Shown here in pieces: positions 12,339-51,859 of a DNA stretch of 64,000 nucleotides. Every line of letters begins with the position of its first letter. The first letter of the stretch is position 1. The notes under the pieces are model-generated. The model worked only from the letters and a program-made list of their open reading frames with translations. It was not told the DNA's origin and ran no database searches. The stretch is taken from the IMG/VR virus record IMGVR_UViG_3300023174_000090, positions 1 through 64,000 of that record; one strand, given 5' to 3'. Both the position numbers and the translations under genes were made by a program. Source of the stretch: a virus.

Positions 12339-15300
12339 ATGGCGAAACCATACATAGCACCAAATCAAGTATTCAATTTAAATTTTGGAGAATATTTTTC
12401 TAATATTTTAAATTTCACGGGAACCTCACCGATAACATTTTCGGCTGTTGGGTTGCCGAGTGGTTTGGCCTTAAACACTTCTACTGGTGAATTGGTTGGA
12501 ACTCCTGTAGAGTCTGGTGTTGTATCTTCTTATATCATAGCAACAAATTCTGAAGGATCTTATGCTTCTGTTATAAAATTTAACATTAAAAAAATACCAG
12601 ATTCCAATGTATATTTTAATATTTCTCCTGTTGTTGGATATGCTAAAAATACAAAATATCAATTTACAACAAATGTGATCGAATCCTTATCTGCATATAG
12701 TGTTTTATGGGGGTTTGGAGACGGTTCTGTGTCTGATGAGATAAACCCCAAGCACACATACAATGTATCTGGTAATTATATAGTATCCTTAAATGCGTAC
12801 ACCAATACCGGAGTTGTTTTATTATCATCACAGTTAAGTGTTGGTCTATTATTAAACGAATCTGTATATTTTGATTATGTCCCCCCTCCTACCTTTGCTG
12901 GTCATTACAATAGATATCCATTCAAGTTAAATTTCACGTCTTCGGAGGAAGGTCCACATGTCATTGACTTAGCGGCACAGTATTCTAGATCATATCAATA
13001 TCAGTCTCCGAGAAATAAATGGTCTTTTCTCAGACCGGAGTGGAGATTTTTAGATTTAAATGGAAATCCAATTACAAGTATAATTCCAAATGAAACAAAA
13101 ATATATTGTAATGATTTAGGTAAATTAAATACAGATGGTTCTGGATTTGTCGCAGGAGTTACTGGAAGTGCCGAATTTTATTTTGTGGATGATATTCATA
13201 ATTTCGATTTAGCATTCGAGGGAGGTGCGTATACTACAGTAATAGCAACCCTACAAACAAGTGCGGTGCGCTCTTTTAACGATAGTTTTAATATTAGTGA
13301 TGACCTTCCTAGTTTTTCTAATAGTTTAGCAACTGTTTCTGTTCCATATATGGTTTTATTAAGACCACCGGATAATGTAAAAATAACAGAAAATGGAATT
13401 AGAGAATATATAAATCCTAGATGGAAAGAATCGATACAACCAATTGTAATAAATACTAATTTTGAAAACCCATTTCCAGAACCTTACTATTGGCAAGATT
13501 TTTCCAAAGAAATTAGCATTTATAATGAAAATAAGTCATTTTCGCATTCATTTCCACTAAGCGGTGACATGTCTTTAAATGTAGGTGTTTTAAATTTGAG
13601 TTCAACATTTACGCCGTCTGATGTGAAATTTTCTTGGCTAAATGAAGATGGATACAAATCCCCCGGATACTACAAGGGGTATTTTAAAACAAATCCTCCA
13701 TATTCATTCAAGACTCCTGTGACCTCAACTGTATCAGCACCGCTTCCAAATCTTTCGTCTCAGTATTTCAACCCAATAATTTGGGTGTCTAATCCAAATG
13801 CTGGAATGATGTGCAATTTTCAATATATAAATAACCCAGCACTGTCTGCGGCCATGAACACTCCTAACATGAACATAGCTGTCATAAAAAACTTTGAAAT
13901 GCCAGTAATAACTGAAGTAGATTTTCAAAAAGATCCGATGGCATTATCAGGATTTCATGGAATATATAGCATTGCTGCCACTACGTATCCAGCATATCAT
14001 GCATGGGCATTGGATTCTGAAATGAATAGTTTATATCGACTAACAACAAATGGAAATATATTGTGTTCCATAGATATAAATAAAATTATTTCGGATAATA
14101 ATTTAGGATTTTTAAGTGAAGATCAAACGTCTCCTGTTTCTATGGTTCTGGATAGTAAGCAAAATATATGGATAACATTGTATGATACAATATCTACAAT
14201 AAAATTAGATAGATTTGGAAATTTCTTATTTGCTACCACTCCTCTATCCAGTACTGGATATGTTTTTCCTCCTGCTCCAAATATAGATGGAAATTGGTAT
14301 GAGCAAAATACTTATTTTGATTCCGACAATTTTGCTGAATATGATTCTAATGCTTTAAATAATATAGATTTAAATTTTATAGAACCTACATGTGTCGATT
14401 CAGATTCGAATGATAATATATGGGTAACATATTCATATTTTGCTAGTGGATATATAGTAAAATATGATAAAGATGGAGCATTGTTAAATACAATTTCATA
14501 TCCCGTATGTTCTTGTCCACAACAAATTGTAGTGGATAATCAAGATAATGTTTGGATAGCACTTTCTAATAATCTCAATCCTTCTCACGAATGTATTTTA
14601 GAGAAAAGAAATTCAAATGGAGTTTTATTAAGTTCTGTAGGCGATATAAGAGGATTGAATTATTTAACATTAGATACACATCAAAATCCTTGGTTTACCT
14701 TCAGTTATAGTTGGATAGGTTCCGTTGATAATAATAACGGAACTGTATTTACTACAAATCTTTCCGGATCTAATTACACCTCAAACCCTCCCGATTGGTT
14801 TGATCCAGATAGTAATATAGATGAGACATGTTTGGAAGGAATTGGATGCGATTTAAGAGGTAGAATATATGTTGTGAATTCTCTTGAAAATCAAATTTAT
14901 ATATTAGATTCTTATACAAAAACGTTTTTGGACAAATTTTATGTAAACCCACAAGGATTTACATTTACAATAGACAATCAAGAGGGAGAAAACGGAATGA
15001 TTGCTTCTCTTTGGCAAAAGTCTCTTCAAGCGTCTGGAGATTGGACTGGATTGCGATGGATGAACAAATATGGAGTATCGGATCTTCCGTTTTTTACTAA
15101 TAATAGTTACGTTCATTCTATAAGCGGAACAACAAAACAATTACACTTTGCCGAACATGAAGATTATACTTCCTTTAAAATTAATGAAAATTTCGATTTG
15201 GCTGCAAATATGCAATCATATGCTTTCATACCATCTCTACGAGAGAGTACATTTCTATTTGAGGATTTCTTAGGCTCAATATACGGAAAATACCCATTTA

Positions 15301-15935
15301 ATAGAGATGATTTGGGAGTTTCTGTGTATGAAAAGATAGCAAATTTTGTTTCCAATCATTCTGATGTAGATTATTGTAATATAGATCAATTATATAACGT
15401 TATGAGTGAATTGGGGCTTGATGTTGATAAATTCGATTTAAATTATCCAGAAGAAATACAAAGATTAGTAAATCTTGCTAGTATAAATCAATCTAGATTA
15501 TTTGGAGCCAAATCTTTAAATGAAAATTATTTTACAAAAGTAAATAATCAAGATCAAACTAATAGGGGAGATTTGATAACTAGTTTTTGTTATACGGTAT
15601 CAGCTGGGCAAAAATTTGTGTTAAAAGACAAAACCATAAACAAATATGATTTGATTGAAACCTCGGAAATAAACGGATGTTCTGCATATTCCTTATCGGT
15701 TTTAGCTGAATTTTTAGGATTTAATTCATATGATTGGTCTTCTTACTATGAATTTTATGAATTTAATAATTCATATGACCTTAAACAATTAGAGGGTATA
15801 ATCGATTGGTCTAATCCGCAAACAACAATAAACGAAACATTATCAAGTTCTAAATATTGGTTTGGACCCGAAGGTCTTTTGGATTTAGAATTTTCGTATG
15901 AAATATATAAAGGATTAGGTTTTATTAACAAGTGA
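12339..15935 (+). CDS. Giant baseplate-associated protein with Ig, PKD and beta-propeller regions (gp7 position)
   Basis: 1198 residues. Residues about 20-80 form a putative Ig-like fold (TGTSPITFSAVGLPSGLALN, then TSTGELVGTP, the pattern seen in He_PIG-type domains). A PKD-like domain follows (WGFGDGSVSDEINPKHTYNV, then SGNYIVSL, about 125-155). A long stretch of beta-propeller-type repeats spans roughly 560-870 (DSKQNIWITLYD, DSNDNIWVTYSY, DNQDNVWIALSN, DLRGRIYVVNS). The C-terminal 250 residues are mixed and include FLFEDFLGSIYGKYPFNRDD. Position directly after gp25-gp6 corresponds to gp7 in T4 (1032 residues), but I see no clear gp7 homology. It is probably a peripheral baseplate protein that contacts fibres or cell-surface glycans. 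Confidence 0.6.
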   Translation: MAKPYIAPNQVFNLNFGEYFSNILNFTGTSPITFSAVGLPSGLALNTSTGELVGTPVESGVVSSYIIATNSEGSYASVIKFNIKKIPDSNVYFNISPVVGYAKNTKYQFTTNVIESLSAYSVLWGFGDGSVSDEINPKHTYNVSGNYIVSLNAYTNTGVVLLSSQLSVGLLLNESVYFDYVPPPTFAGHYNRYPFKLNFTSSEEGPHVIDLAAQYSRSYQYQSPRNKWSFLRPEWRFLDLNGNPITSIIPNETKIYCNDLGKLNTDGSGFVAGVTGSAEFYFVDDIHNFDLAFEGGAYTTVIATLQTSAVRSFNDSFNISDDLPSFSNSLATVSVPYMVLLRPPDNVKITENGIREYINPRWKESIQPIVINTNFENPFPEPYYWQDFSKEISIYNENKSFSHSFPLSGDMSLNVGVLNLSSTFTPSDVKFSWLNEDGYKSPGYYKGYFKTNPPYSFKTPVTSTVSAPLPNLSSQYFNPIIWVSNPNAGMMCNFQYINNPALSAAMNTPNMNIAVIKNFEMPVITEVDFQKDPMALSGFHGIYSIAATTYPAYHAWALDSEMNSLYRLTTNGNILCSIDINKIISDNNLGFLSEDQTSPVSMVLDSKQNIWITLYDTISTIKLDRFGNFLFATTPLSSTGYVFPPAPNIDGNWYEQNTYFDSDNFAEYDSNALNNIDLNFIEPTCVDSDSNDNIWVTYSYFASGYIVKYDKDGALLNTISYPVCSCPQQIVVDNQDNVWIALSNNLNPSHECILEKRNSNGVLLSSVGDIRGLNYLTLDTHQNPWFTFSYSWIGSVDNNNGTVFTTNLSGSNYTSNPPDWFDPDSNIDETCLEGIGCDLRGRIYVVNSLENQIYILDSYTKTFLDKFYVNPQGFTFTIDNQEGENGMIASLWQKSLQASGDWTGLRWMNKYGVSDLPFFTNNSYVHSISGTTKQLHFAEHEDYTSFKINENFDLAANMQSYAFIPSLRESTFLFEDFLGSIYGKYPFNRDDLGVSVYEKIANFVSNHSDVDYCNIDQLYNVMSELGLDVDKFDLNYPEEIQRLVNLASINQSRLFGAKSLNENYFTKVNNQDQTNRGDLITSFCYTVSAGQKFVLKDKTINKYDLIETSEINGCSAYSLSVLAEFLGFNSYDWSSYYEFYEFNNSYDLKQLEGIIDWSNPQTTINETLSSSKYWFGPEGLLDLEFSYEIYKGLGFINK

Positions 15936-16379
15936 TAATAAATAATTAGCGTTGTTAAATGTTGATAGTATCTCCTCTACTGTATTGTTTACTCCAGATC
16001 GATTTTCTGATATAAATGATTTAAATTCTGATGATGTCAATATGCCAGATAATTCTAAGTATACAGAATTATATATTTCAAATAAATTAGTAGAGCAGAA
16101 AATATCGGAGTCGGTTACTGATAAAAACCCATTTATATTAAATTTTGGAAATAAAGTATTTTCATTTATTTTAGAAATTCCTATAATTTCTTCTTGTAAA
16201 GAATCCGTTAAATCGTTTAATTTATCATACAATTTTCCAAAAATTCTATGAGAATTGTAATCATCTATATACCAGTGAATCATTTTTAATAAAGTTAATG
16301 TTTTCATTAAAATTAATCCAAATTCTTTAGAATTATCAAAAGAATTTTCAACTTTTTGTGTTATTATTTGTATTTCCAT
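15915..16379 (-). CDS. Small conserved phage protein, DUF5856/ferritin-like helical type
   Basis: 154 residues, mostly helical. The segment LMKTLTLLKMIHWYIDDYNS, then HRIFGKLYDKLNDLTDSLQEE, resembles the H-x-x-x-x-x-Y-x-x-H-x-x-x-GKLYDxLNDLxDxxxE pattern of a phage helical-bundle family (DUF5856-like). Function is unknown. It converges with and overlaps the giant baseplate gene by 21 bases. Its start lies 32 bases inside the upstream gene region, so it is part of the minus-strand operon that begins at 23873 or earlier. Confidence 0.5.
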   Translation of the reverse strand: MEIQIITQKVENSFDNSKEFGLILMKTLTLLKMIHWYIDDYNSHRIFGKLYDKLNDLTDSLQEEIIGISKINENTLFPKFNINGFLSVTDSDIFCSTNLFEIYNSVYLELSGILTSSEFKSFISENRSGVNNTVEEILSTFNNANYLLSLVNKT

Positions 16380-16791
16380 TTTTATATATCTCCGTTTTTA
16401 TTAAAAAATCACCTATTATTGTTTCGCTCGAACTCATCAAAATATAATTCGGGGTGTGATACTCTTCTTGCTCAGGGTCTTCTTCTTTTATATCTATTTT
16501 AGAAGAAGATAATCCCTTTCCATCTCTCGTTAAGGTAACTTCATGACCGAGTTCTTCTAATTCTAATTTTAAAGATAGAATATAATCTTCTTCTGATTTG
16601 AAAAATAATTTCCACAGTGGAAGTGGAAATATAATATTTAAAGCATCTCTTCTTTGTGTACATTTATTGCAGGGTGTTTTAGATTTGATTATTAGATATG
16701 TTATCCATCCTAATAATTTAGAATGTAAAATACATGCAATTAAATCTCCTAATCCCCTTGTGTATTTTATTTTTAAGTATGGATCTTTCAT
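16348..16791 (-). CDS. Unknown protein with CxxC-x2-RR motif
   Basis: 147 residues. The N-terminal half has KIKYTRGLGDLIACILHSKL followed by a CNKCTQRRDALNIIFPL element (Cys41, Cys44). This C-x-x-C-x-x-R-R-x-x-L-N pattern recurs in small phage proteins and may bind one metal ion. The C-terminal half is acidic and not recognisable. It overlaps the next minus-strand gene (15915-16379) by 32 bases and the preceding one by 4 bases, so the cluster is tightly coupled. Confidence 0.5.
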   Translation of the reverse strand: MKDPYLKIKYTRGLGDLIACILHSKLLGWITYLIIKSKTPCNKCTQRRDALNIIFPLPLWKLFFKSEEDYILSLKLELEELGHEVTLTRDGKGLSSSKIDIKEEDPEQEEYHTPNYILMSSSETIIGDFLIKTEIYKNGNTNNNTKS

Positions 16792-17189
16792 TTTAAATTT
16801 TTATGATATGCTTTATAGTAATTAATCCTATTTTTAGTTTTTTCTATAGCATTTAATATAGATTGTGACATGTCTACAAAATCATCATCTGCTAAAGAAT
16901 CGTTATTTTCTAATATTTTGTTTATTTGTTGTATTATGTTTAATATCTGTATATCTATAGGGTATTTTGCTTGTATGTAATTTTTTAAATCATTTTCCAA
17001 TTCTATTTCTTTTTCTGGATATCCAACATTAAATCTTATCATACCTCCAGTATCATAACTTCCTTCCCATTTCCAAAGAGACAAATCTGATTTGTCTGGA
17101 GGTGTTTCTATGGTTAATATTTGATTAGATGGAGGTATATCTTCACTATAACCTATAAATTCTTTATCTTTATTAAATAATACAAACAT
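16788..17189 (-). CDS. Unknown small protein downstream of glycine-rich adhesin (possible fibre chaperone)
   Basis: 133 residues. It begins MFVLFNKDKEFIGYSEDIPP and has DLSLWKWEGSYDTGGMIRFN. The second half is a charged helical region (LKNYIQAKYPIDIQILNIIQ...). Small proteins with this layout often follow phage fibre genes and help fold or attach them, so a chaperone role is possible but unproven. It starts 1 base inside the stop of the glycine-rich protein gene (TAATG overlap). Confidence 0.45.
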   Translation of the reverse strand: MFVLFNKDKEFIGYSEDIPPSNQILTIETPPDKSDLSLWKWEGSYDTGGMIRFNVGYPEKEIELENDLKNYIQAKYPIDIQILNIIQQINKILENNDSLADDDFVDMSQSILNAIEKTKNRINYYKAYHKNLK

Positions 17190-18799
17190 TATACAACTCC
17201 CGGACCTAATATTATACCATACTTTGTAACGGTTCCATATGATGAAATATATTGAGCATTTAAATTTGTTGTGAGAGAAAGTATAAAAGTTTTACCATTT
17301 ATCGACAATCCAGAATTTCCGCCGAATGGTGGAAGTTGTCTATTTTTATTATCTAGTTTACCACTATCGACTCCTTTTTGCCCTAAAGAGCCTCCTGCTC
17401 CTCCCGTTGCACTATTTAAACTGCTAATACCAGAACCTCCTTTACCTCCACCCTGTCCCCCACCTAAATTATTAGATGTGAATGTGCCATCTCTGCCAAC
17501 GTCTCCTCTGTATGATTTAAATACATAATTTTTAGTAGGATCTAATGGTTGAGTATTGCCTAATCCTCCTTCTCCTCCCATTCCCCCAATAATTCCAGCA
17601 CCTCCACCGCCACCGCCACCGCCGAATATGTTTTCTACGTTGAGATTTGATGTTGGAAGTAGTTTTAAGTACGAAGTATCAGAAAAGTCTGCTAATCCGC
17701 CACCGCCACCACCACCGCCACCCGCTATTACGTTGTTATTTACTATGGTAACTGGATAGTTTAAAAATATAGCATCTCCTCCGTTTTCTCCGTTGTTATC
17801 AGCTGTTAATGCTTTTCCTAAATCTTGTCCATTTCCCCCGTTTCCTCCGTAACCAACTATAAATCCATTATTAACTATTTTTACAGTATCGCTGGAAGTA
17901 AACCCAGAAACAATGAATGCTGCTATATTTTTAGAGTTGCTTCCTATTTTTATATTCGCATTTATTGTTACTTCTATGTCGCTAAATCCGGGGTAATATA
18001 ATCCGGTGTTATACACATAAGAATATAAATCAAAATTTTGAGTATCTCGTTCTATTGTTATTGTTAATTTTGATCTGCCGTCAGCGTTTCCGGTTTGAGT
18101 GGAAATTCTATTTCCTTGAGATGCGATATAAGTTGGTTGATATGTTTCATCCGTAAATCCCTTTTCGATATTTAATAAGGTCCAACCATCATTGATATTT
18201 TTAAATGTAAAATTTACACCATTTCCAAATGAAATATCCTGTTTTAAAAATTTTACATACATATTTCTAACTGAATATGATATTTCAGGAGATAGGGTAT
18301 ATGTGATTAAATCATTAGGATCTGATGGATTTACTGGTACATTATATAAAAACATACAAACTGTTATCTCATTTCCCGTATTAAAGGAATTCGCTGGATA
18401 ATTTGCGTTTAAATATTTTTTAGCTAATGTTTGTAATTTTAAATCTGGTTGATTTACAGTGGGGCAGTTTATTGATAAATCATTTAAAATAGAAATATTT
18501 ATAGGATATAAAACAGTGAATTTATTTTTATTCCAAAAAGAACTTAATAAATTTACAGTGGTATATCCTAAATTATATCTATCAACATTATAAAAATATT
18601 TTACAGTATCATTAAAATACTGTAAATTTGAATTTAATTCATTAAATTTTGTAAAAAAATTGTCATTTGATAAAAAATATTGACTGGATACATTACATAC
18701 TTCGGTGTCCAATGATAATAAATTAAAATTGTGCTTAGATGGCGAATCCCCTACACAATCAGATTCGAATATTTCTTGTGTTAATAATCTAGGTGTCAT
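17189..18799 (-). CDS. Glycine-rich adhesin-like tail protein
   Basis: 536 residues. The N-terminal 150 residues belong to a family shared with the next two upstream genes (F-E-S-D-C-V-GDSPSKHNFN..., FTVLYPINISILNDLSINCP, then a helix and the motif ITVCMFLYN). The C-terminal half contains long glycine blocks of up to 9-10 consecutive Gly (GGNGGNGQ, IAGGGGGGGGGLAD, FGGGGGGGGAGIIGGMGGEG). Such blocks recall the polyglycine type II helices of the gp38-type distal fibre adhesin known in S16/T2-like phages. The protein may bind a receptor. It lies immediately downstream of 18803-19738 and upstream of the small gene at 16788. Confidence 0.6.
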   Translation of the reverse strand: MTPRLLTQEIFESDCVGDSPSKHNFNLLSLDTEVCNVSSQYFLSNDNFFTKFNELNSNLQYFNDTVKYFYNVDRYNLGYTTVNLLSSFWNKNKFTVLYPINISILNDLSINCPTVNQPDLKLQTLAKKYLNANYPANSFNTGNEITVCMFLYNVPVNPSDPNDLITYTLSPEISYSVRNMYVKFLKQDISFGNGVNFTFKNINDGWTLLNIEKGFTDETYQPTYIASQGNRISTQTGNADGRSKLTITIERDTQNFDLYSYVYNTGLYYPGFSDIEVTINANIKIGSNSKNIAAFIVSGFTSSDTVKIVNNGFIVGYGGNGGNGQDLGKALTADNNGENGGDAIFLNYPVTIVNNNVIAGGGGGGGGGLADFSDTSYLKLLPTSNLNVENIFGGGGGGGGAGIIGGMGGEGGLGNTQPLDPTKNYVFKSYRGDVGRDGTFTSNNLGGGQGGGKGGSGISSLNSATGGAGGSLGQKGVDSGKLDNKNRQLPPFGGNSGLSINGKTFILSLTTNLNAQYISSYGTVTKYGIILGPGVV

Positions 18800-18802
18800 A
18801 TA

Positions 18803-19738
18803 TTATATATATTTGTCTAATACCCAAATACAATTTTTAACTTTAAAAAATAAAGTTGATATCTTTTCATTTTCATATCTATCTTGAAAATCCATTTCTA
18901 TATTGGCTGATATATATGCTTCCACCGTTTTACCTAATGGTTGTATAGGAAATCCCATTTTTAATGCGGGAAATGCGTTCACAGCTTTGGTTAAAGTTTT
19001 TTTTAAAAATTTTATTGTTTTACCGATTCTACTTTTAATTGGAATTTTTGTTACTACAGGTATATTACTATAGCTATTTATATTTTGTGTTAATGGAGGT
19101 GTCAGTATTTGTGATGTACTATATGGATAAGACGGGTAAGAGCACTCTAATGTCCGTGTTTGTTGACAAGAATTTGATTGTCCGTTACAATTAAAACCTC
19201 CATTCTCACAACTTACATATCCAGAATAGTAATTTGTACACGTAATTGAAACAATTTTATTTTGTGTTTGGCAAAATGTTCTGTCTCTTATAGATTGATT
19301 TTCACTTATAGAATTTCCGTACTGCCAAATGTGTGAATATACAATAATTTGTTGATTTTCTATATAATTTAAATTGTTGTCATTTGTCTGTACTGGAAAA
19401 TTTTCATTTATCCAAGAAGATAAAGTATCTATAATTGTTTCGTTATCTATAGAATATGGAAATATTGATGGATAAAAAACTGAGATAGGTTTTATCCATC
19501 CTGCGGAATTAGTTTCAACAGTAGTACATGCACTAAATACGTTACTAGAAGCTGCTTGTATTAGAGTCGAAGTTTCTTTTAAAAATGGTCCAAATGCTTT
19601 ATAATAATCTAACATTGGATTCCAATATAGATCTATATCGTTTTTAACAGCAGTTACACAATTTTCTAATCTAAGGTAATTGATATTTACAGAACTTAGA
19701 GAATCTCCTATTGTTTCGTTTTGAAATATTTCTATCAT
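18803..19738 (-). CDS. Paralogous tail adhesin-like protein, cysteine-rich
   Basis: 311 residues from ATG 19738. The ORF can be read from an upstream TTG, but ATG 19738 overlaps the stop of the preceding gene as ATGA, which is the convincing start. The N-terminal domain (MIEIFQNETIGDSLSSVNIN ... ISVFYPSIFPYSID, then SSWINENFPV and an IVYSHIWQYG strand) is paralogous to its two neighbours. A cysteine-rich stretch follows (FCQTQNKIVSITCTNYYSGY, VSCENGGFNCNGQSNSCQQT, LEC), then a conserved-looking basic segment and a C-terminal beta-rich end. Probably a virion fibre or baseplate appendage. Confidence 0.55.
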   Translation of the reverse strand: MIEIFQNETIGDSLSSVNINYLRLENCVTAVKNDIDLYWNPMLDYYKAFGPFLKETSTLIQAASSNVFSACTTVETNSAGWIKPISVFYPSIFPYSIDNETIIDTLSSWINENFPVQTNDNNLNYIENQQIIVYSHIWQYGNSISENQSIRDRTFCQTQNKIVSITCTNYYSGYVSCENGGFNCNGQSNSCQQTRTLECSYPSYPYSTSQILTPPLTQNINSYSNIPVVTKIPIKSRIGKTIKFLKKTLTKAVNAFPALKMGFPIQPLGKTVEAYISANIEMDFQDRYENEKISTLFFKVKNCIWVLDKYI

Positions 19739-20508
19739 ATTACACTCCAACTATTGTTTATATTTTTAAGCTTTGCCGAAATTATTCTAGCTACATTTCT
19801 ATCGCTTCCTGCTCTATTCAGTCCTATTTGTAATAATTTACCACCAGTGCCTGTGCATGTTACGTTTGCGCTTGCGGATGACACGGTGACTCTGCAACCA
19901 TCATATGCATTTGTACACCAATGTTTTTTATTTTTTCCGCTTCCAGAAGTATGGTTACATCCTCTGTGAGGTCTGCGGCAACCGCTGCACGATAACACTA
20001 AGCCGCCGCCTGTTGGTATACACGTTTCTCTATAGCTTCTATTAAAATTAAATGTAAACGAGCCTTGTTGGCTTACATGGAAAAATACATCAACTAACTG
20101 ATTTTTATTGTAATTGGATGTGGGAAAATATATATTCATCCATGAAATTGCTTTATTTTCTATTGTTTGTTGTAAGTTTGGAGTGGTAATGCTTATCATT
20201 TCTGGATAAAATATTGTCCATTTTTTTGTCCACCGAGAACTTAAAGATGAAACTGTTGTTGCCATATCTAACCATTTCGCGCTGAATGTTTGAAAATTTG
20301 ATGACGCTACCATCCATTTAGCACTATTTTCTGAAAAACTAGTATATATTGGATACCAGTTATCTTTAAATGATGATAGATATGCAACAGAAGAATATAG
20401 TTTACTAAAATTAAAATTTATAAGATTCAAACTATTTTTTAAACATAGATTTTGATCTATTAAATAGATATTAGAACATGTAGGATTTATTTTTTTAAAA
20501 CTTATCAT
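19735..20508 (-). CDS. Paralogous tail adhesin-like protein, cysteine/histidine-rich
   Basis: 257 residues from ATG 20508, which overlaps the stop of the 1122-residue upstream gene (ATGA). N-terminal domain: MISFKKINPTCSNIYLIDQN, WTIFYPEMISI, AISWMNIYFPTSNYNKNQ, VFFHVSQQG. These align by pattern with the FYP...W-I-N-x-x-FP...Y-S-H-x-x-Q-G elements of the next gene. The C-terminal part has clustered Cys and His (CIPTGGGLVLSCSGCRRPHR, GCNHTSGSG, HWCTNAYDGC), suggesting disulfides or metal binding. Third member of a tandem paralogous set. Confidence 0.55.
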   Translation of the reverse strand: MISFKKINPTCSNIYLIDQNLCLKNSLNLINFNFSKLYSSVAYLSSFKDNWYPIYTSFSENSAKWMVASSNFQTFSAKWLDMATTVSSLSSRWTKKWTIFYPEMISITTPNLQQTIENKAISWMNIYFPTSNYNKNQLVDVFFHVSQQGSFTFNFNRSYRETCIPTGGGLVLSCSGCRRPHRGCNHTSGSGKNKKHWCTNAYDGCRVTVSSASANVTCTGTGGKLLQIGLNRAGSDRNVARIISAKLKNINNSWSVI

Positions 20509-23500
20509 AGCCAATTTATTTTATATAATGAAGATTCTGCGGGTGTTAATTTTTTAATATTATTTTTAATAGACTCCTCTATTAAAAATTTTAAATCATC
20601 TTTTATATTTAGGTTATGTATATTAATATTAAAGTATTTGCTCTTGTTTCCGGGTAATTGATTTTTATACCAATATTGAATTTCTTCTATGTAGTTCCTA
20701 TCACCAACTAAAACATTCCAAGAAAGATCTTCTCTGTTACTCGAAAATTCCGAAGAAAAATATAACTGTTCTGTTTCTCCGATAGTTAGCGATTTTGAAT
20801 ATATTCTTAAATCTGATATACTTCCTATAAATTTATTTGTATTGTCTATTCCTATAATATCATTTAATGTTGTGTTCTTTATAGTAGCAGCACCTAATAA
20901 TAAAGAAGATCTATATTCATAATTCAACTGATATTTTCCAGAATCAAAATATGCCGAATCCACTTCTATGGAATCTATAAAATATTTTGCATAACCTTGT
21001 GTCGAATCAAATGTAAAAGTAAACATGTGCCAACCAATCGGAAGAGATTCCGAGTTATAATTTAAAGAGAACAATTGAGGTGTTTTTCCATTCGGCTCTG
21101 ATATCTTAAATTTCCATGACACATTTTTTATTGCGGCTCCGTATTTTCTTAAAAATTGATATCCAGTAAAATCTCCTTTTGCGTAGAATTTGAAATCGGA
21201 AGTATTTTTATCGAGCAATGCTCTTAGATCTAATTTCGATAATAAATTTCCAACTTCATCTATTAAATACGCTTCATTGTCCCTATTATCTATTAATATT
21301 AATACGTCATTATAAAATGTATTTTTATTACATCTATTATTATCTAATGGAATTCTTATAAAATTTAAAAATCTAAATGTATTCTGTGAAAAGCATAGGT
21401 TTAAAGGAGATCCCGAATTCTTTCCTATTCTGAATGAAAACTCAAAAATTCCCTTTTCGGTATTTAATTTAGATATGCGATCCTGTTCGTGTGATATCCA
21501 AATATTATTTTTAGAATCGCATGATATTTGTTGTACAAATCCTACATTAGCATATACTTGTCTGTTTTTATATAAATTGCCTCCGACTGCCTCCCATATG
21601 TTATTATTTCCATCTATTATGGAAGAGTTTCCATAAATTTCAATAACATTATTATTGCTATCTAATTGTATTCCATTTACACTCGAATCTGTGATTATAT
21701 GTGTGGATTGAATGCTTCCATTCTGATCAATAATAACATATTTTTTAAGACTATTATCATATAGATACATGTTCTGATTGGAATCCATTTCAAGTTGATC
21801 GATTGTATCTAATGATAGATATCCGGACGGTATTGTGTATACTAAATTGTTTATCGAATCGTATTTATGACCTATAATATTATTAGAATCAAATATCCAA
21901 TAGTTATAATCGGGGGTTCTTTGTATGAAAGAGAAGTTAGAATTATAAATTCCATTTAATGGATTTTGAGAAAGTTTGTTAAATTTATAATTAAAATTAT
22001 ACGAAATTGATGATGTTTGATTTACTATTGTTACTAAAGGAGAAGATAAAAATCCTTCATTAATCAAACCAAACCCGCTGTCATAATAGTTTCCAAAAAT
22101 TTGATCACCGGATATATTACCCCAGTCATCTACATTAACCCACATGGAAACTGTAAATTTATTTTTTTGTAGAAGTGATGTTTTTGATGGAAAAACTACA
22201 TGGTTATTACCGTTTAACGTAATATAATTCCCTTTAAAGGTATTATCATCAGAAAAAAATGCCAATCCGTTATTTTTATGTAAAGAATCGTCTAGAATAG
22301 GAGAGGATAGCCAGTTTGTAATTGTTAATACATTAGCACCTTTAGGATCGTTTATATCATAATTCAAATATTTTAAAAACTCTTTACTTCCGTTTATTCC
22401 ATAACGGGAATATGTGTACAATGCTCCCGGTTCCATGTACATTGTAGATGGTGTATCAAATGTTAATGGTTCGTTTGCTGATAATTTTGGGTGATATAAC
22501 AAGCTTTTTGCTGTTAATGCTTCATCGAGTGTATAAAATGCTGAATTGTAATATCTATCCAACCATATTTTATCTCCTAGATTTGTTCCCGAAAGCCAAG
22601 AACATAACCAAGTATTATCAAATTTTGTAATCGACAATGGCTGTGGAGCGTCTGGAATTAGTTCTTCGTAGTTTGTTTTATATAAATATATCCTATCAGA
22701 TGCATACGGCACTTCTCCTGCTACTGCACCGTCTTCTATCAATCCACATGAACTTAATGGAATTCTTGAAGATGTTGCTGGAAAATAAAATTTCGTATCT
22801 TGATCTACTTTAAAATCTATTTTTTTAGTATTTGCATGGAATCCTAAGAATATTTTATCATATCCTTTATTCTGATTCGTTCCTGTGAATATTTTATTAT
22901 ATACTCGTCTTATTGATGGAGAATCTGAAAATTTTGGATTTGAAGTAGAATATTCATATTCCGGAGTTTGATAGTTTTTTAATCCATGAATTTGAAAATC
23001 ATAAGCACAATCACTTTCATTCACAGTGGGATTTTCTACAGGATACATTCCCAAGTAATTTTGAGAGCATAGATTTTCATCAGAAAACTCTTTGTTTATT
23101 TCTAATTTATTTTCCGAGTATATTGGATTTGTTTTGTATTTCACTAAAAAACTATTAGAAACGCTATCCAAAAATTCCTCATCATTATATCTATACGAAC
23201 CTAATTTAAAAAATGAGTTTAATGGTAAATTTTGATTTTCAGTTAATGATATAGAACTTAACATTAAAATGTTTGAACTGTTTATTAATGCTATTTTATT
23301 ATATAAATTATCATATTTAAATATGTATATATTGTTGCGTTCTAGTATATAATTAAATTTTTGATTGTTTATATATGGCAATATTTGTTTACTAAAAATT
23401 AGTTTATCACTTGAAATTGTTAATACATTTCCTATTTTATTTTTTATTATTATAAAATCATCTTCAAAGAATAACGTTAATACATCAGAAGAATCTGCCG

Positions 23501-23873
23501 ATACTCTATCACTTTTTATTAAAATATTCGGATTATTTGGAATTGCAGAATTTGCATTAAATATTGATAGATAATACCCATCTAAAGTTTTTATGGGAGA
23601 TTCTATTTTTTCTAATTTTTCTACATCTTTGGGGTTTTCTTTATTAGTTACAAAATATGAATTATAAAACATGGAAGTAAGAAATGTTCCAGTTTTTTTA
23701 TTAAATGTAAAATCTGTAGAATTTTTTAAAAAATTATGCAAATAAAAAAACATTCCATTATTACATAATATGGATTGTTTTTTTGTAGAAAATTGATCTC
23801 CTATGATATTAAAATCTATAGGCTTCCAATATGTAGAACATAAATTATTAAATATACTAAACGTTGATGCCAT
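20505..23873 (-). CDS. Giant tail protein with LamG-like and propeller-type regions
   Basis: 1122 residues. The middle contains a LamG/concanavalin-like lectin fold: FPSKTSLLQKNKFTVSMWVN VDDW near residue 560, and GWHMFTFTFDS...YFIDSIEVD followed by FIGSISDLRIYSKSLT near 950-1030. Between these halves lies a stretch of propeller-like repeats (DSNQNMYLYDN, DSNNNVIEIYG, DGNNNIWEAVG, DSKNNIWISHE) that resemble those of the giant gp7-position protein. The C-terminus LTPAESSLYKINWL is of the kind seen at the end of phage baseplate and fibre proteins. It heads the tandem adhesin operon and has a late promoter. A carbohydrate-binding virion protein is likely. Confidence 0.6.
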   Translation of the reverse strand: MASTFSIFNNLCSTYWKPIDFNIIGDQFSTKKQSILCNNGMFFYLHNFLKNSTDFTFNKKTGTFLTSMFYNSYFVTNKENPKDVEKLEKIESPIKTLDGYYLSIFNANSAIPNNPNILIKSDRVSADSSDVLTLFFEDDFIIIKNKIGNVLTISSDKLIFSKQILPYINNQKFNYILERNNIYIFKYDNLYNKIALINSSNILMLSSISLTENQNLPLNSFFKLGSYRYNDEEFLDSVSNSFLVKYKTNPIYSENKLEINKEFSDENLCSQNYLGMYPVENPTVNESDCAYDFQIHGLKNYQTPEYEYSTSNPKFSDSPSIRRVYNKIFTGTNQNKGYDKIFLGFHANTKKIDFKVDQDTKFYFPATSSRIPLSSCGLIEDGAVAGEVPYASDRIYLYKTNYEELIPDAPQPLSITKFDNTWLCSWLSGTNLGDKIWLDRYYNSAFYTLDEALTAKSLLYHPKLSANEPLTFDTPSTMYMEPGALYTYSRYGINGSKEFLKYLNYDINDPKGANVLTITNWLSSPILDDSLHKNNGLAFFSDDNTFKGNYITLNGNNHVVFPSKTSLLQKNKFTVSMWVNVDDWGNISGDQIFGNYYDSGFGLINEGFLSSPLVTIVNQTSSISYNFNYKFNKLSQNPLNGIYNSNFSFIQRTPDYNYWIFDSNNIIGHKYDSINNLVYTIPSGYLSLDTIDQLEMDSNQNMYLYDNSLKKYVIIDQNGSIQSTHIITDSSVNGIQLDSNNNVIEIYGNSSIIDGNNNIWEAVGGNLYKNRQVYANVGFVQQISCDSKNNIWISHEQDRISKLNTEKGIFEFSFRIGKNSGSPLNLCFSQNTFRFLNFIRIPLDNNRCNKNTFYNDVLILIDNRDNEAYLIDEVGNLLSKLDLRALLDKNTSDFKFYAKGDFTGYQFLRKYGAAIKNVSWKFKISEPNGKTPQLFSLNYNSESLPIGWHMFTFTFDSTQGYAKYFIDSIEVDSAYFDSGKYQLNYEYRSSLLLGAATIKNTTLNDIIGIDNTNKFIGSISDLRIYSKSLTIGETEQLYFSSEFSSNREDLSWNVLVGDRNYIEEIQYWYKNQLPGNKSKYFNINIHNLNIKDDLKFLIEESIKNNIKKLTPAESSLYKINWL

Positions 23874-33320: not shown

Positions 33321-36300
33321 ATGGCTTCAAAGAAAATTAGTCAATTACCATTAAACACTTCAAGTTTACCAACAAGTGCTGTTATAATAACAAATATAGG
33401 AGGTGTTACGTACCAATCTCCTCTTTCTGCATTAGTAGATCCTTCCCCCTATAAATTTTCTAATACAAATAGTAATGCAATTATTCCAAAATTAGGAAAT
33501 AATACTTCTTCTGGATATTATTCAAATGTTTCTGGTGGTAGTTATAATATTGCTTCTGGAAATTGTTCAAATGTAAATGGTGGTAGTTTTAATACTGCTT
33601 GTAAGGGTTTTTCAAATGTAGCAGGAGGTTATTGCAATACTGCTTCTGGATATTATTCGAATGTAGCTGGTGGCATGAATAATACTGCGTCCGGAGATTA
33701 CTCTAGTGTTTCTAATGGTCTTGAAAATATTTCTTCTGCAAATTATTCAAATATAGTTGGTGGTGTTTTAAATACTGCTTCTGCATATGCTTCAAACATT
33801 GCTGGGGGTTGGGGGAATAACGCCTCAAACGATTATTCAAACGTTGCTGGTGGCAGGTCTAATACTGCTTCTGCATGTTATTCAAACGTAGCTGGGGGTT
33901 ATATTAATACTGCTTCTGGATGTTATTCAAACGTTGCTGGAGGACGTAATAATACTGCTTCTAATTATATTTCGAATGTTGCGGGTGGTGGTTATAATAC
34001 TGCTTCTGGATATTATTCAAATATTACTGGTGGTTATGGTAATACTGCTTCTGGATATTCTTCAACTATTGCGGGTGGTTTTTGTAATACTGCTTCTGGT
34101 CGTTATTCTTCAATTTTAGGCGGACGTAACAACAATACCAACAACCAATGCAATACGTTTATTTTAGGTTCTAATATAACAGCAAATGCACAAGATACTA
34201 CATATGTAAATAATTTATTTGCTACTAATAATATTGTAATTCAAGGTTCTTTGAGTGCTGCTGGAGGTGCGACATTTGCAGATACTGTTTTTACAACCAC
34301 TAGCGCATTAAGTGTTGTTAATTTAGGTGTTGGTCCTGCTTTATATGTATATCAAGCATCTGGTCCGTATGATGTTGCTTCATTTGTTGATGGAGACGGT
34401 ATAGAAGTTTTACACGTTGGTAATGCAAATTTTGGTCAAACCGGAAAAATTGGTATAAATCAAAGTTTTCCTAATAAAGAATTAACAGTTACTGGAGAAA
34501 TCAGTGCAACTGGAATTATTTATGCTTTAAGCGGAAATAGTTCTAGTTGGAATTCTGTTTATAATTCAGTTTTATCAAATTCTGCTAATAATGCTTCTAT
34601 AAATTATGTAAATTCCAATTATCTTCCATTAACCGGAGGAACTATAATAGGTGAGGTTAATGTTCTATCGGGATTGAACGCGGGTTATGGAAATTTAACA
34701 CTAGAAATAAATGAAAATAGTGTTTCTGTATATGGCCCGTTAAGTTCTAACAATACAATTTATGATTCTGTTGGAAATTCAACAGAATGGAATTCTGTTT
34801 ATACTACAGTATATAATACTTCGGCTGATTGGGATTCTACATATACAAATCAAACAAATTATTTACCATTAAGCGGTGGAACAATAACAGGTGACGTTAC
34901 TATTTTATCTGGTTTAGAAGTTGGGTATGGAAATTTAACACTAGAAATAAATGAAAATAGTGTTTCTGTATATGTACCGTTAAGTTCTAACAATGCAATT
35001 TACGATTCTGTTGGAAATTCAAATCAATGGAATTCTGTTTATACTTCTGTTCTAAATACGTCTGCTAGTAATGCTTCTATAAATTATGTTAATTCTAATT
35101 ATCTTCCATTAACCGGAGGAACAATAACAGGTCCGGTTGAAATAAATGCATCAGAGGTTGATAATGTATTAAAATTAAAAGGAAAGTATGGCGGTTATTT
35201 AGACATAGTATTAACCGATGAGTCTTTTACAGCTGGATATCCTGCTCCGGTTGGATCTATTGGATCATCCGGTGAGGGATTTTCTGTAAAATATGGAGTA
35301 GGAGATACTCAATGGGGTAAGGTTGTTTATAGTACTAATTTTGACGAGGGCGATGAAGCTACTATTAAAAATCTAAAACTAGAAAAATTAAAAGATGGTA
35401 ATAACAATTTTGTTTTAGATACGACTGGTGGGTTTAATGTTTATAATACTGCTAATTCAAATAAAGCTATAGAAATTGTTGATAATCAACTTTTATATAA
35501 TGTTTCTAATGAAGTAGTATTAGATTTTACAGATAAATTTTATATTAAAAAAAACACAAGAATAGATGCAGATGTTACTATTTTTGGAAACCTTACATCA
35601 ACTGGCACTCAAACATTTGCAAATACTATATTCTCGACAACAAGTTCATTAAGTGTTTATCATGTTGGAACCGGACCAGCATTATGGGTCGGTAACTATG
35701 GAACTGGTGATATTGCTTCCTTTTATGACTTAGATAAAAATATAGAAATTCTTCATGTCGGAGGAAATGATGGAATATTTCCTAATGTTGGTGTTAAAAC
35801 ATCTTATCCTAATAAAGATTTTACAGTTAACGGAGAAATTAGTGCTTCTGGTGATATATGGACATCTGGAAGAATTATTTCTGATATTATCGAAACAGGA
35901 TCAGGAAGTATTACACTCTTTGTTTCTTCTGGGCTTGTTGGTATTAATACAGAACTTCCAAATAAATCTCTTACAGTTAACGGAGAAATTAGTGCTTCTG
36001 GTGATATATGGACATCTGGAAGAATTATTTCTGATATTATCGAAACAGGATCAGGGAGTATTACACTCTTTGTTTCTTCTGGGCTTGTTGGTATTAATAC
36101 AGAACTTCCAAATAAATCTCTAACAGTTAACGGAGAAATTAGTGCTTCTGGAATTATTTATGCCTTAAGTGGAAATAGTTCTAATTGGAATTCTGTTTAT
36201 TCATCATGGGAAACTGCATCTGCAACTTCTATTGTTTCTTACAATGATACTAGATTTTCAAAACTTTCTAGCCAAGCATATAAATTAACATATCCTAGGC

Positions 36301-37310
36301 TTTCGATAAGTCCTATAAATGGAAATAATACTGCTTCTGGATATTATTCAAATGTAAATGGTGGTTATGGTAATAATGTACTTGGAGATTATTCAAGCAT
36401 AGGTGGCGGTATTTGTAATAATGCGTCTGGATATGTTTCGACAATTTCTGGTGGTAGAAGTAATACTGCTTCTGGATGCAAATCAACAGTAAGTGGTGGT
36501 TATTGTAATAGTTCTTGTGGATATAGTTCAACAGTTTCTGGTGGTTGTTGTAATACTGCTTTTGGATATGCTTCTAATGTTTCTGGTGGTATATCTAATA
36601 CTGCTTCTAACTATAATTCAAATGTTTCTGGTGGTAGAAGTAATACTGCTTCTGGATGTATATCAACAGTAAGTGGTGGTTGTGGTAATAGTTCTTGCGG
36701 ATATAGTTCAACAGTTTCCGGTGGTTGTTTCAATACTGCTTCTGGATGTGCTTCGAATGTTTCGGGTGGTATAGATAATACTGCTTGTGGCGATTATTCA
36801 AACGTTACTGGGGGTCGTTTCAATACGGTTTCTGGGGCGTATTCACACGTTGCTGGAGGTCGTGATAATATTGCTTCTGGAGATTATTCTGCGATATTGG
36901 GTGGTAGCTGTAATGATACCAACAATAAATCTAATACTTTTACTTTAGGTTCTAGTATAACAGCATCACAACCAAATTATACATACGTAAACAATTTATC
37001 TTCACAGAATAATATTAATGCTACTGTTATAAGCTCTATGGGTGGAAATTCAAATCAATGGAATTCTGCTTACTCAAACCAAACAAATTTTCTTCCATTG
37101 AGTGGTGGAATAATATCAGCAAACTCTTCTACAAACGCATTAACCGTTGTTGGTAATATATCTGCAACACAAAATTATTTTTCTGGAAGCAATAAATCAG
37201 TATTTACACCACAAACAAATACAGTCGGTATTAGTGCAATAAGTAATATTGTTGCTGTATCGGTTTTACCCGCAACACCAAATCCTTCAACACTATATAT
37301 TATTATATAA
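33321..37310 (+). CDS. Giant tail fibre with two YadA-like head arrays
   Basis: 1329 residues. The N-terminus (KKISQLPLNTSSLPTSAVII TNIGGVTYQSPLSAL) is a fibre attachment-type segment. Residues 64-273 are 14 tandem 15-residue repeats (SGYYSNVAGGxxNTA), the left-handed roll of YadA-type trimeric adhesin heads. A long stalk follows with GPALYV, KIGINQSFPNKELTVTGEIS and LPLTGGTITG modules. Residues 1006-1200 are a second array of 13 repeats, and a short C-terminal stalk follows. Parts of the stalk are duplicated nearly exactly at DNA level. It should form a trimeric, receptor-binding fibre. Many repeats carry Cys at the variable position. Confidence 0.8.
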   Translation: MASKKISQLPLNTSSLPTSAVIITNIGGVTYQSPLSALVDPSPYKFSNTNSNAIIPKLGNNTSSGYYSNVSGGSYNIASGNCSNVNGGSFNTACKGFSNVAGGYCNTASGYYSNVAGGMNNTASGDYSSVSNGLENISSANYSNIVGGVLNTASAYASNIAGGWGNNASNDYSNVAGGRSNTASACYSNVAGGYINTASGCYSNVAGGRNNTASNYISNVAGGGYNTASGYYSNITGGYGNTASGYSSTIAGGFCNTASGRYSSILGGRNNNTNNQCNTFILGSNITANAQDTTYVNNLFATNNIVIQGSLSAAGGATFADTVFTTTSALSVVNLGVGPALYVYQASGPYDVASFVDGDGIEVLHVGNANFGQTGKIGINQSFPNKELTVTGEISATGIIYALSGNSSSWNSVYNSVLSNSANNASINYVNSNYLPLTGGTIIGEVNVLSGLNAGYGNLTLEINENSVSVYGPLSSNNTIYDSVGNSTEWNSVYTTVYNTSADWDSTYTNQTNYLPLSGGTITGDVTILSGLEVGYGNLTLEINENSVSVYVPLSSNNAIYDSVGNSNQWNSVYTSVLNTSASNASINYVNSNYLPLTGGTITGPVEINASEVDNVLKLKGKYGGYLDIVLTDESFTAGYPAPVGSIGSSGEGFSVKYGVGDTQWGKVVYSTNFDEGDEATIKNLKLEKLKDGNNNFVLDTTGGFNVYNTANSNKAIEIVDNQLLYNVSNEVVLDFTDKFYIKKNTRIDADVTIFGNLTSTGTQTFANTIFSTTSSLSVYHVGTGPALWVGNYGTGDIASFYDLDKNIEILHVGGNDGIFPNVGVKTSYPNKDFTVNGEISASGDIWTSGRIISDIIETGSGSITLFVSSGLVGINTELPNKSLTVNGEISASGDIWTSGRIISDIIETGSGSITLFVSSGLVGINTELPNKSLTVNGEISASGIIYALSGNSSNWNSVYSSWETASATSIVSYNDTRFSKLSSQAYKLTYPRLSISPINGNNTASGYYSNVNGGYGNNVLGDYSSIGGGICNNASGYVSTISGGRSNTASGCKSTVSGGYCNSSCGYSSTVSGGCCNTAFGYASNVSGGISNTASNYNSNVSGGRSNTASGCISTVSGGCGNSSCGYSSTVSGGCFNTASGCASNVSGGIDNTACGDYSNVTGGRFNTVSGAYSHVAGGRDNIASGDYSAILGGSCNDTNNKSNTFTLGSSITASQPNYTYVNNLSSQNNINATVISSMGGNSNQWNSAYSNQTNFLPLSGGIISANSSTNALTVVGNISATQNYFSGSNKSVFTPQTNTVGISAISNIVAVSVLPATPNPSTLYIII
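33510..34139 (+). repeat. YadA-head repeat array 1 (14 x 45 bp)
   Basis: Fourteen 45-bp units, each encoding 15 residues of consensus SGxYSNVAGGxxNTA. The framework codons are conserved and positions 3-4 and 11-12 of the unit vary. The array is within the giant fibre gene. Confidence 0.85.
34618..35130 (+). repeat. 240-bp stalk modules in the giant fibre
   Basis: The LPLTGGTITG-coding block recurs at about 34621, 34861 and 35101, exactly 240 bases apart. The segment after it (tatggaaatttaacactag at 34686 and 34926) is nearly identical over about 115 bases between the first two modules. Each module encodes 80 residues. Confidence 0.75.
35821..36152 (+). repeat. 150-bp near-identical tandem duplication in fibre stalk
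   Basis: Units 35821-35970 and 35971-36120 match almost base for base; the A/G change in TCAGGAAGTA versus TCAGGGAGTA is one visible difference. A partial third copy runs from 36121 to about 36152. Each unit encodes 50 residues beginning LTVNGEISASGDIWTSGR. Confidence 0.85.
36336..36920 (+). repeat. YadA-head repeat array 2 (13 x 45 bp)
   Basis: Thirteen 45-bp units coding for 15-residue repeats related to array 1. This array is richer in Cys codons (SGC, CGYSSTVSGG, GGCCNTA). Confidence 0.8.
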
Positions 37311-37559: not shown

Positions 37560-38921
37560 ATGGCAAACACTTCCATTACAATTTATCCTCAATATAATAG
37601 CAATCAGGTAACAAATATTAATTGCGGAACTAGTTCTCCTAGAATTGGTGGAACAATTGATATTTCGTCTTTTCCAAATTTAAATAGTTTTACTTGTGAT
37701 TCTAATGATATAACTTCTTTTAAAGGATTTGCTAACTGCCCGAACTTAACAAACGTTAGTCTTACCCTAAATAAAATTACAGGAAATTTTAATGATATAT
37801 TTCCAAATTTTAACAATAGATTAAATATGGTGAGTTTTGGCGTACGGTCAAACCTAATGACAGGAACAATTCCAAGTTTAAGTGGATTGAGTAATTTGCG
37901 AGTTTTTAGTTGCAATGAAAATCAACTTACAGGACTCATTCCTAGCTTGAGTGGTTTGACTAATTTTCGAGTTTTTGGTTGCAACTCAAATCAACTCACA
38001 GGAACAATTCCAAGTTTAAGTGGATTAATTAATTTGCAAGAGTTTCGTTGCTACTCAAATCAACTCACAGGAACAATTCCAAGTTTAAGTGGTTTGACTA
38101 ATTTGCGAGAGTTTAGTTGCAATGAAAATCAACTCACAGGAACACTTCCAAGTTTAAGTGGCTTGACTAATTTGCGAGTTTTTAATTACAATGAAAATCA
38201 ACTCACAGGAACAATTCCAAGTTTAAGTGGTTTGACTAATTTGCGAGAGTTTCGTTGCTACTCAAATCAACTCACGGGACCCATCCCCAGCTTGAGTGGC
38301 TTGACTAATTTGCAATATTTTTATTGCAACTCAAATCAACTCACAGGAACAATTCCAAGTTTAAGTGGATTAATTAATTTGCAAGAGTTTCGTTGCAGCT
38401 CAAATCAACTTACAGGCTTTGCTGGTGGTTCAGTTTCTAATACTCTTAGCAATTTTCAGGCACAAAATAACCAACTAACCCAAAGTGCTGTTGATACCAT
38501 CTTATCAACATTTAATGCAACAACAAGAACCACGGGAACAAGAGTTTTAAATTTAGGTGGTGCAGGCAACAGTGCTCCAAGTTATACGGGAGGAGTTACT
38601 ACAACGTCTCTTGGATTTAATTTTTCTAGAACAGGAACTCTTGTAACAGCAAATGTAAATAATCATGGACATACAAATGGAAACCTTGTAACAATTACGG
38701 AAATACCACAAACAGATTTTCAAGGAACATTTACCATAACAGTAACTGGACCAAATCAATTCCGATACACAACGGTAACATCCGGATCTATTACAGGAAC
38801 AGGAACAGCCACTATGAGAAGAACGACCAATGCTAATGATGGATTTAGATCATATCAAAACCTTGCCCTCGTTACAAGACTAGGAGGATTTCCTTGGAAC
38901 GTAAATATTAACTTCCCATAA
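37560..38921 (+). CDS. Leucine-rich-repeat fibre protein (distal part)
   Basis: 453 residues. After an N-terminal strand region (SITIYPQYNSNQVTNINCGT) there are about nine 23-residue leucine-rich repeats, consensus LTGTIPSLSGLTNLREFSCN ENQ, between residues 97 and 290. The C-terminal 150 residues are beta-rich (TTGTRVLNLGGAGNSAPSYT, GTFTITVTGPNQFRYTTVTS). LRR solenoids of this type bind proteins or glycans, so a receptor-binding tip is likely. The repeats are nearly identical at DNA level. The ATG at 37560 lacks the close TAAATA element found before other late genes, which supports its being the continuation of the preceding ORF. Confidence 0.65.
   Translation: MANTSITIYPQYNSNQVTNINCGTSSPRIGGTIDISSFPNLNSFTCDSNDITSFKGFANCPNLTNVSLTLNKITGNFNDIFPNFNNRLNMVSFGVRSNLMTGTIPSLSGLSNLRVFSCNENQLTGLIPSLSGLTNFRVFGCNSNQLTGTIPSLSGLINLQEFRCYSNQLTGTIPSLSGLTNLREFSCNENQLTGTLPSLSGLTNLRVFNYNENQLTGTIPSLSGLTNLREFRCYSNQLTGPIPSLSGLTNLQYFYCNSNQLTGTIPSLSGLINLQEFRCSSNQLTGFAGGSVSNTLSNFQAQNNQLTQSAVDTILSTFNATTRTTGTRVLNLGGAGNSAPSYTGGVTTTSLGFNFSRTGTLVTANVNNHGHTNGNLVTITEIPQTDFQGTFTITVTGPNQFRYTTVTSGSITGTGTATMRRTTNANDGFRSYQNLALVTRLGGFPWNVNINFP
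37857..38422 (+). repeat. Leucine-rich-repeat DNA array, 69-bp period
   Basis: About eight tandem 69-bp units encoding LTG(T/L/P)IPSLSGLxNLxxFxCNxNQ. Adjacent copies share long identical blocks such as aacaattccaagtttaagtg, so recombinational gain or loss of repeats is likely. Confidence 0.8.
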
Positions 38922-46275: not shown

Positions 46276-47031
46276 ATGAAAGAACACATAGGAATTGGAA
46301 TATTGGATATATATGATCAAGAAGATTTGGAATCTTGTTATTCATCGATACCGGAAGAGTATAGAGATAATGTTTTAATCGCTTCGGCAACCAACAACTC
46401 GATTGCTTCCAATATAGCACATAAAAAATTTAACGAAGTTTCCATGGCAACTCTTAGAAATTGGATAATTTCAAAATTCAGAATAGACGGATTAAAATAT
46501 ATTTTTATTATTAGTTCGAATCAAATTATAGATGATCCGAAAATATTCGAAAAGACAATTAAACTCGGAGAAACCTTTGGTACATGGTTTATATTGGGAG
46601 ATGGAAAGAATTCACTACCAATGGAAGATGAATCCACCGGAAATACTATTTATGCTACTCCAGAAATGAATAGTGACTTCATGTTTATTCTCTCTGGAAT
46701 AGTTTCAAATACCGGATACTTCGATGAAAGATTTTACAACACTAAAGATTTAGATGTTTTGGATTATATAATGAAATTAAGAAAAAAGGGAATATATCCA
46801 CCCGCAAATTATAATTTAAGCATTGGAAATGGAGTCAAAGGACTTAATAAGCCAATCAAGAAAATAAAATATGCAGATGTGAATAATCCCGATAGAAGCG
46901 TTGGTATTTCGTATGGATATTTTAAACATATTCATAATTATTTGCCGGGAGTTAATGACCCTTCCGGAATAACACAAGAAAAATTGATTGAATTTATGCA
47001 AGAACTTCAAAAAAATTATGCAAAAAGATAA
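46276..47031 (+). CDS. Divergent GT2-type glycosyltransferase-like protein
   Basis: 251 residues. Its frame follows a GT-A fold: KEHIGIGILDIYDQEDLESC YSSIPEEYRDNVLIASATNN, IFIISSNQIID, SGIVSNTGYFDERFYNTKDL DVLDYIMKLRKKGIYPP. The last stretch aligns with the GYFDE-x-(F/Y)-x-N-A-x-x-x-x-D-x-x-Y-x-(L/I)-x-x-x-G-x-x-P stretch of the next two genes, so the three are paralogs. The canonical DxD is not clear here (SSNQ instead), so it may be inactive or accept a different donor. First gene of the island between gp47 and gp46. Confidence 0.55.
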   Translation: MKEHIGIGILDIYDQEDLESCYSSIPEEYRDNVLIASATNNSIASNIAHKKFNEVSMATLRNWIISKFRIDGLKYIFIISSNQIIDDPKIFEKTIKLGETFGTWFILGDGKNSLPMEDESTGNTIYATPEMNSDFMFILSGIVSNTGYFDERFYNTKDLDVLDYIMKLRKKGIYPPANYNLSIGNGVKGLNKPIKKIKYADVNNPDRSVGISYGYFKHIHNYLPGVNDPSGITQEKLIEFMQELQKNYAKR

Positions 47032-49329: not shown

Positions 49330-49345
49330 AAAATACAATAAAACA

Positions 49346-49353
49346 TATAAATA
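49346..49353 (+). promoter_or_regulatory. Perfect late promoter TATAAATA (for GT genes from 49364)
   Basis: Exact T4 late consensus TATAAATA, with 10 bases from its end to the ATG at 49364. It shows that at least the second half of the glycan island is transcribed late. Confidence 0.75.
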
Positions 49354-49363
49354 ATTTATTAAA

Positions 49364-49906: not shown

Positions 49907-49908
49907 AC

Positions 49909-51842: not shown

Positions 51843-51845
51843 TAA

Positions 51846-51851
51846 TAAATA
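51846..51851 (+). promoter_or_regulatory. Late promoter element TAAATA (for FkbM methyltransferase)
   Basis: TAAATA 8 bases before the ATG at 51860. This is the second late element inside the glycan island. Confidence 0.5.
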
Positions 51852-51859
51852 TCTAAATT

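Follow-up and report, generated by a model that had tools for sequence, protein, structure and literature searches.

The Tail Cassette and Its Genomic Setting

The window, i.e., the whole stretch of 64,000 nucleotides analyzed here, comes from a 111,556-base virus record of a T4-like phage. It carries T4-type core genes, namely those for the gp15 tail sheath stabilizer, baseplate wedge subunits, a UvsX-like recombinase and the major head protein; the isolate phages that best match the last of these are cyanophages, at ~35% identity. Three minus-strand genes that an earlier note had read as tandem paralogous adhesins, starting at 20508, 19738 and 18799, were confirmed as open reading frames (ORFs) and are termed P1, P2 and P3 here. 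Together with their neighbors they are laid out as follows:

20505..23873, minus strand: LamG companion gene, 1122 aa, upstream of P1; Pfam Laminin_G_3 at 30.6 bits
19735..20508, minus strand: P1, 257 aa; helix of heptad type, and an alpha/beta core that contains a Cys/His module
19852..20022, minus strand: P1 Cys/His module, residues 163–219 of 257, inserted after a core strand and ahead of the closing hairpin
18803..19738, minus strand: P2, 311 aa; common N-terminal domain, internal Cys module and closing segment with KNCxW
19142..19273, minus strand: P2 Cys module, residues 156–199 of 311, with six Cys
17189..18799, minus strand: P3, 536 aa; base domain (residues 1 to ~215) without Cys module, then glycine-rich tip
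17192..18112, minus strand: P3 tip of gp38 type, residue ~230 to the C-terminus; glycine-rich motifs and a beta part
16788..17189, minus strand: small downstream gene, 133 aa, with FxLFNKDKxFIGYSxDIP; adjoins P3 in most relatives

The close coupling of the genes was likewise as described before, P1 being linked by ATGA overlaps both to the gene upstream of it and to P2, with a gap of 3 bases between P2 and P3. The LamG companion has a conserved C-terminus with the final residues SLYKINW(L/M); its orthologs share 41–60% identity with the window protein and lie directly upstream of P1 in the relatives inspected, the LamG ORF of one of them (L107) being broken ~175 bases ahead of P1. Downstream of the cassette, a 154-aa protein (window 15915–16379, minus strand) matches phrog_858 (starvation-inducible transcriptional regulator) at 44 bits, and similar proteins occur downstream of the cassette in relatives too.

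Elsewhere in the window, a 1198-aa ORF behind the baseplate wedge genes (12339–15935, plus strand) combines Ig/PKD domains with propeller-like repeats, and its position suggests a gp7-like wedge protein. A 1329-aa ORF (33321–37310, plus strand) carries WNSVYT repeats and repeated YSNVAGGxxNTASG motifs, the latter by eye resembling the heads of trimeric autotransporter adhesins; it had no PHROG match at E 0.001. The 453-aa ORF at 37560–38921 (plus strand) contains many leucine-rich repeats (LTGTIPSLSGLTNL) and matches PHROG families of unknown function, and a run of ORFs between replication genes (46276–52474, plus strand) resembles, on visual inspection, glycosyltransferases and further enzymes of sugar modification.

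Base Domain and Descent of the Trio

Judged by profile comparison, P1, P2 and P3 are homologous, i.e., tandem paralogs with a common base domain. BLASTP of the window proteins linked P1 to P2 (2e-11) and P1 to P3 (1e-4), the P2/P3 comparison not being significant. Alignment of the N-terminal parts together with their orthologs (N1, N2, N3) by hhalign gave E values of 5.3e-17 for N1/N2, 5e-13 for N1/N3 and 3e-4 for N2/N3, with scores of 102, 80 and 30, respectively, versus a maximum of ~20 among shuffled controls (40 column-shuffled controls per comparison). The N-terminal domain that the earlier note had ascribed to all three proteins was thus recovered, for P1/P2 and P1/P3 already by BLASTP and for all pairs by hhalign above the shuffled controls. 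The motif quoted along with it (FYP...WINxxFP...YxHxxQG) is found in P1 and P2 and does not extend to P3, which has LYP, YLN and YP and no HxxQG. Each protein also carries the motif GDSLSxxNxNYxxL or a variant thereof near its start. The segments that close the domain after the Cys modules read FKNINxxW in P1 and FKVKNCxW in P2; the P1 closing hairpin matches the equivalent region of P3 (hhalign E 2.4e-5), and the P2 segment looks alike, its E values of 0.03 versus P1 and 0.02 versus P3 alone not being significant. From the N-terminal profile matches and the P1/P3 hairpin match, the base domain corresponds to P1 minus its insertion and to P3 up to about residue 215.

AF2 models of P1 and P3, computed from 10 and 9 input sequences, were poor overall (mean pLDDT 57 and 49), but both present the same order of elements, namely two helices, strand, helix, strand and closing hairpin. 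The strand-helix-strand and hairpin parts reached pLDDT values of ~85–94 in P1 and ~67–84 in P3, while the P1 Cys module and most of the P3 glycine part remained unmodeled. The models thus speak weakly in favor of a common fold of the N-terminal domain, on which the earlier note had staked its claim. The P1 helix, counted from an N-x-N motif up to the Trp ahead of the core, measures 62 residues in 13/13 P1 proteins, and the helix region is free of gaps in the P1 and P2 alignments. Trp residues at positions 51, 65, 79 and 93 of P1 follow a 14-residue spacing, seen in many members, in a heptad coiled-coil pattern; the P1 helix probably forms a coiled coil of trimeric type, trimerization being what we infer from this pattern.

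Relatives were found via the neighboring gp15 gene, then by alignment searches, plus a whole-record search. Twelve trios were assembled, all from T4-like phages (P3 of L110 is cut by the contig end), in addition to a P1-P2 pair at a contig end in L107, and all twelve show the order P1-P2-P3, with one of each, directly behind the ~1,100-aa LamG protein. In G003 and G005, the trio, its upstream partner and the small downstream genes lie far from gp15 as a unit. No fourth member of the full domain was detected by profile searches in eight cassette-bearing records, and the trio was not seen in the gp15-sharing T4-like records G006, G008, G010 and G013 (157–199 kb), any of which may be incomplete. 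P1-profile matches in large ORFs of G003, G005, G010, G013 and G020 involved chiefly the helix and were left out of the family. In a tree of the N-terminal parts, P2 and P3 each occupied one side of a branch with a support of 100/100, and the three group labels need the minimum of two changes, which indicates that the triplication is older than the divergence of the sampled phages. No branch of this tree sets P1 apart from the rest, the P1 proteins of L098 and L099 being placed beside P2, so that the unity of P1 rests on gene order and Cys pattern. As far as gene order and tree can tell, the cassette is a fixed trio derived from a single old tandem triplication.

The occurrence of one of each gene per genome in a fixed order, the tight gene coupling and the near-equal helix lengths (62 residues in P1, 63 in P2, 65–67 in P3) would also suit an arrangement in which P1, P2 and P3 together build one obligate heterotrimer (an A-B-C coiled coil) with a single distal tip per spike, instead of three specialized homotrimers. 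We regard this as unlikely: similar lengths are explained by common descent alone, and in T4, gp10, gp11 and gp12 each trimerize separately (PMC3004832).

Cysteine Modules of P1 and P2 and the P3 Tip

The Cys segments of P1 and P2, previously taken for C-terminal tips, turned out to be internal insertions in the base domain, each with a closing segment after it. P2 does have a Cys-rich segment, but the nine Cys residues attributed to it are those of the whole protein, six of them lying in the segment; P1 also has nine in total. Nor do these parts look divergent or swappable, as the Cys positions are held across 13 divergent phages. In P1, all nine Cys are present in 13/13 aligned orthologs, including two with an insertion of ~370 residues, and a fourteenth P1 (L008) is without Cys177; in P2, Cys 156, 167, 184, 191, 199 and 303 are present in 13/13 and Cys177 in 12. 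The two long P1 orthologs (L098:8087-9961 and L099:8110-9993) carry their extra sequence inside the Cys region, and a Pfam search with the L098 protein gave no match. An ortholog of P2 (L110:6377-7795) has an extra N-terminal stretch of ~180 residues, for which a Pfam search gave no match either. Mutual homology of the P1 and P2 modules, hinted at by a joint alignment, could not be demonstrated, the hhalign E value of 0.13 falling inside the shuffled range.

At P2 positions 164 and 194, six orthologs have Cys in both places, seven have other residues in both and none is mixed (Fisher p 0.0006, kinship ignored), and by parsimony the pair changed at least four times, on the tree as well as on bootstrap trees. 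That the two positions change strictly together suggests disulfides, without proving them, and a specific contact between positions 164 and 194 is predicted. Synthesis of phage structural proteins takes place in the reducing cytosol, and most P1 modules contain CNH, which together might point to metal binding, for instance of zinc, by the P1 and P2 modules in place of disulfides. This seems doubtful to us, as the optional Cys pair of P2 behaves as a disulfide predicts and the His after GCN is not kept, being replaced by Arg in L008 and L087 and by Gln in L112.

The runs of 8–9 glycines reported for P3 are present (nine at residues 360–368, eight at 393–400), and the proposed gp38-type tip was corroborated by a match of residues 275–370 to positions 29–118 of the 218-position Pfam GP38 profile (PF05268) at 35.6 bits, with a curated cut-off of 25. 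Both PHROG families matched by the tip, phrog_11439 (59.5 bits) and phrog_2056 (25 bits), are tail fiber families. As to a polyglycine II sandwich fold like that of gp38, the glycine region of the model was mostly below pLDDT 50; Foldseek listed gp38 of phage S16 (6f45_D) at a probability of 0.41 and E 2.3, which alone is not significant. Among gp38-type tips, conservation was 0.68 in glycine motifs versus 0.33 in loops, an excess that is in part trivial, glycine being what defines the motifs.

GP38 was matched in 5/9 P3 members scanned, namely the window protein and its nearer relatives. In L096 and L112, the gp38-type tip is replaced by Gly_rich_2 (PF21722), a Pfam family other than GP38 that does not match the window P3, while P3 of L094 (254 aa) and L111 (212 aa) has no tip at all, from which it follows that the trio does not need one. 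On the separate contigs L098 and L099, P3 terminates in Thr/Pro repeats; the gene after it encodes glycine-rich sequence, Gly_rich_2 by profile in L098, plus a segment matching the P3 closing hairpin. The swappable distal domains suggested for all three proteins are thus borne out for P3, whose tip is of GP38 type, of Gly_rich_2 type, absent or split with the next gene, but not for P1 and P2; on the members compared, only P3 of the trio has an exchangeable tip.

Relation to Known Tail Proteins and Proposed Role

The base domain of P1, P2 and P3 is, as far as the databases searched can tell, one that matches no isolate phage, Pfam or PHROG family. For P1 and P2, neither the 50,697 isolate phages nor Pfam and PHROGs yielded a match, and tblastn with the window proteins and divergent members against isolate phages gave none. 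Single-sequence scans of viral contigs returned no P1/P2 relatives, and bacterial and archaeal genome contigs no matches. A PDB sequence search found nothing for P1 or for the P3 tip alone and nothing credible for P2 and P3, and Foldseek gave no significant match, the models being weak. A description of the cassette was not found in the open-access library searched, which is not proof of novelty.

In T4, gp10, gp11 and gp12 are encoded by sequential genes on one mRNA, share a common motif with inserted loops and belong to the baseplate periphery (PMC3004832). The trio likewise comprises three sequential genes with a common core in tandem and insertions gained or lost, but is without a detectable sequence or fold match to the T4 proteins (profile search and Foldseek, the latter with low-confidence models). 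T4 genes 10-11-12 are its closest precedent in organization, not in sequence, and we found no evidence of common descent.

For gp38, the closest counterpart of the P3 tip, likeness lies in the GP38 match and in long glycine runs between variable loops, as known from S16-like T-even phages (PF05268, PDB 6F45). Since gp38 homologs form the fiber tips of S16-like phages and assist assembly in T4 (PMC6851490), and the trio's helix resembles repeats in large fiber-like ORFs (weak matches), the trio might be part of the long tail fibers or their assembly helper instead of the baseplate periphery. Against this, gp38 docks on the gp37 trimer via a helical domain of its own (PMC6851490), whereas in P3 it is the trio's base domain that carries the tip: P3 lacks the helical docking domain with its exposed Trp, its profile match beginning only at position 29 and its N-terminus being base domain. 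As the trio, moreover, remains with the LamG protein, we consider a role in the long tail fibers improbable.

We favor, with a probability of roughly 0.6, the reading that a single tail protein, of the baseplate periphery or a fiber, was triplicated in tandem long ago and that its copies specialized in the manner of T4 genes 10-11-12. Each copy would combine the start motif with a long helix, constant in length, and a small alpha/beta domain that ends in a closing hairpin. In P1 and P2, a Cys-rich insertion in the alpha/beta domain, probably disulfide-braced, would form a rigid knob with a structural or surface-binding role; P3, with a distal tip in place of the insertion, would be the adhesin of the trio, and its gp38-type tip, where present, would be the receptor-binding part, exchanged or lost between lineages. 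The trio would probably assemble onto or with the upstream ~1,100-aa LamG protein. We infer the location in the virion, baseplate placement included, and likewise stoichiometry, disulfides and receptor binding. Quite unlikely in our view is a hetero-oligomeric tail spike of the three paralogs, two of them disulfide-braced and one with a plug-in receptor tip; if true, a new C-terminus on just one of the three subunits would let the phage switch receptors.

On the favored reading of a specialized triplication, the trio probably represents a new set of building blocks for an attachment device of the tail, and uncultured T4-like phages would gain a recognizable attachment cassette, in which the C-terminus of P3 is the segment exchanged between lineages and the Cys modules stay constant. 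It would also provide a case of tandem triplication and specialization like that of T4 genes 10-11-12, arrived at without a detectable sequence relation.
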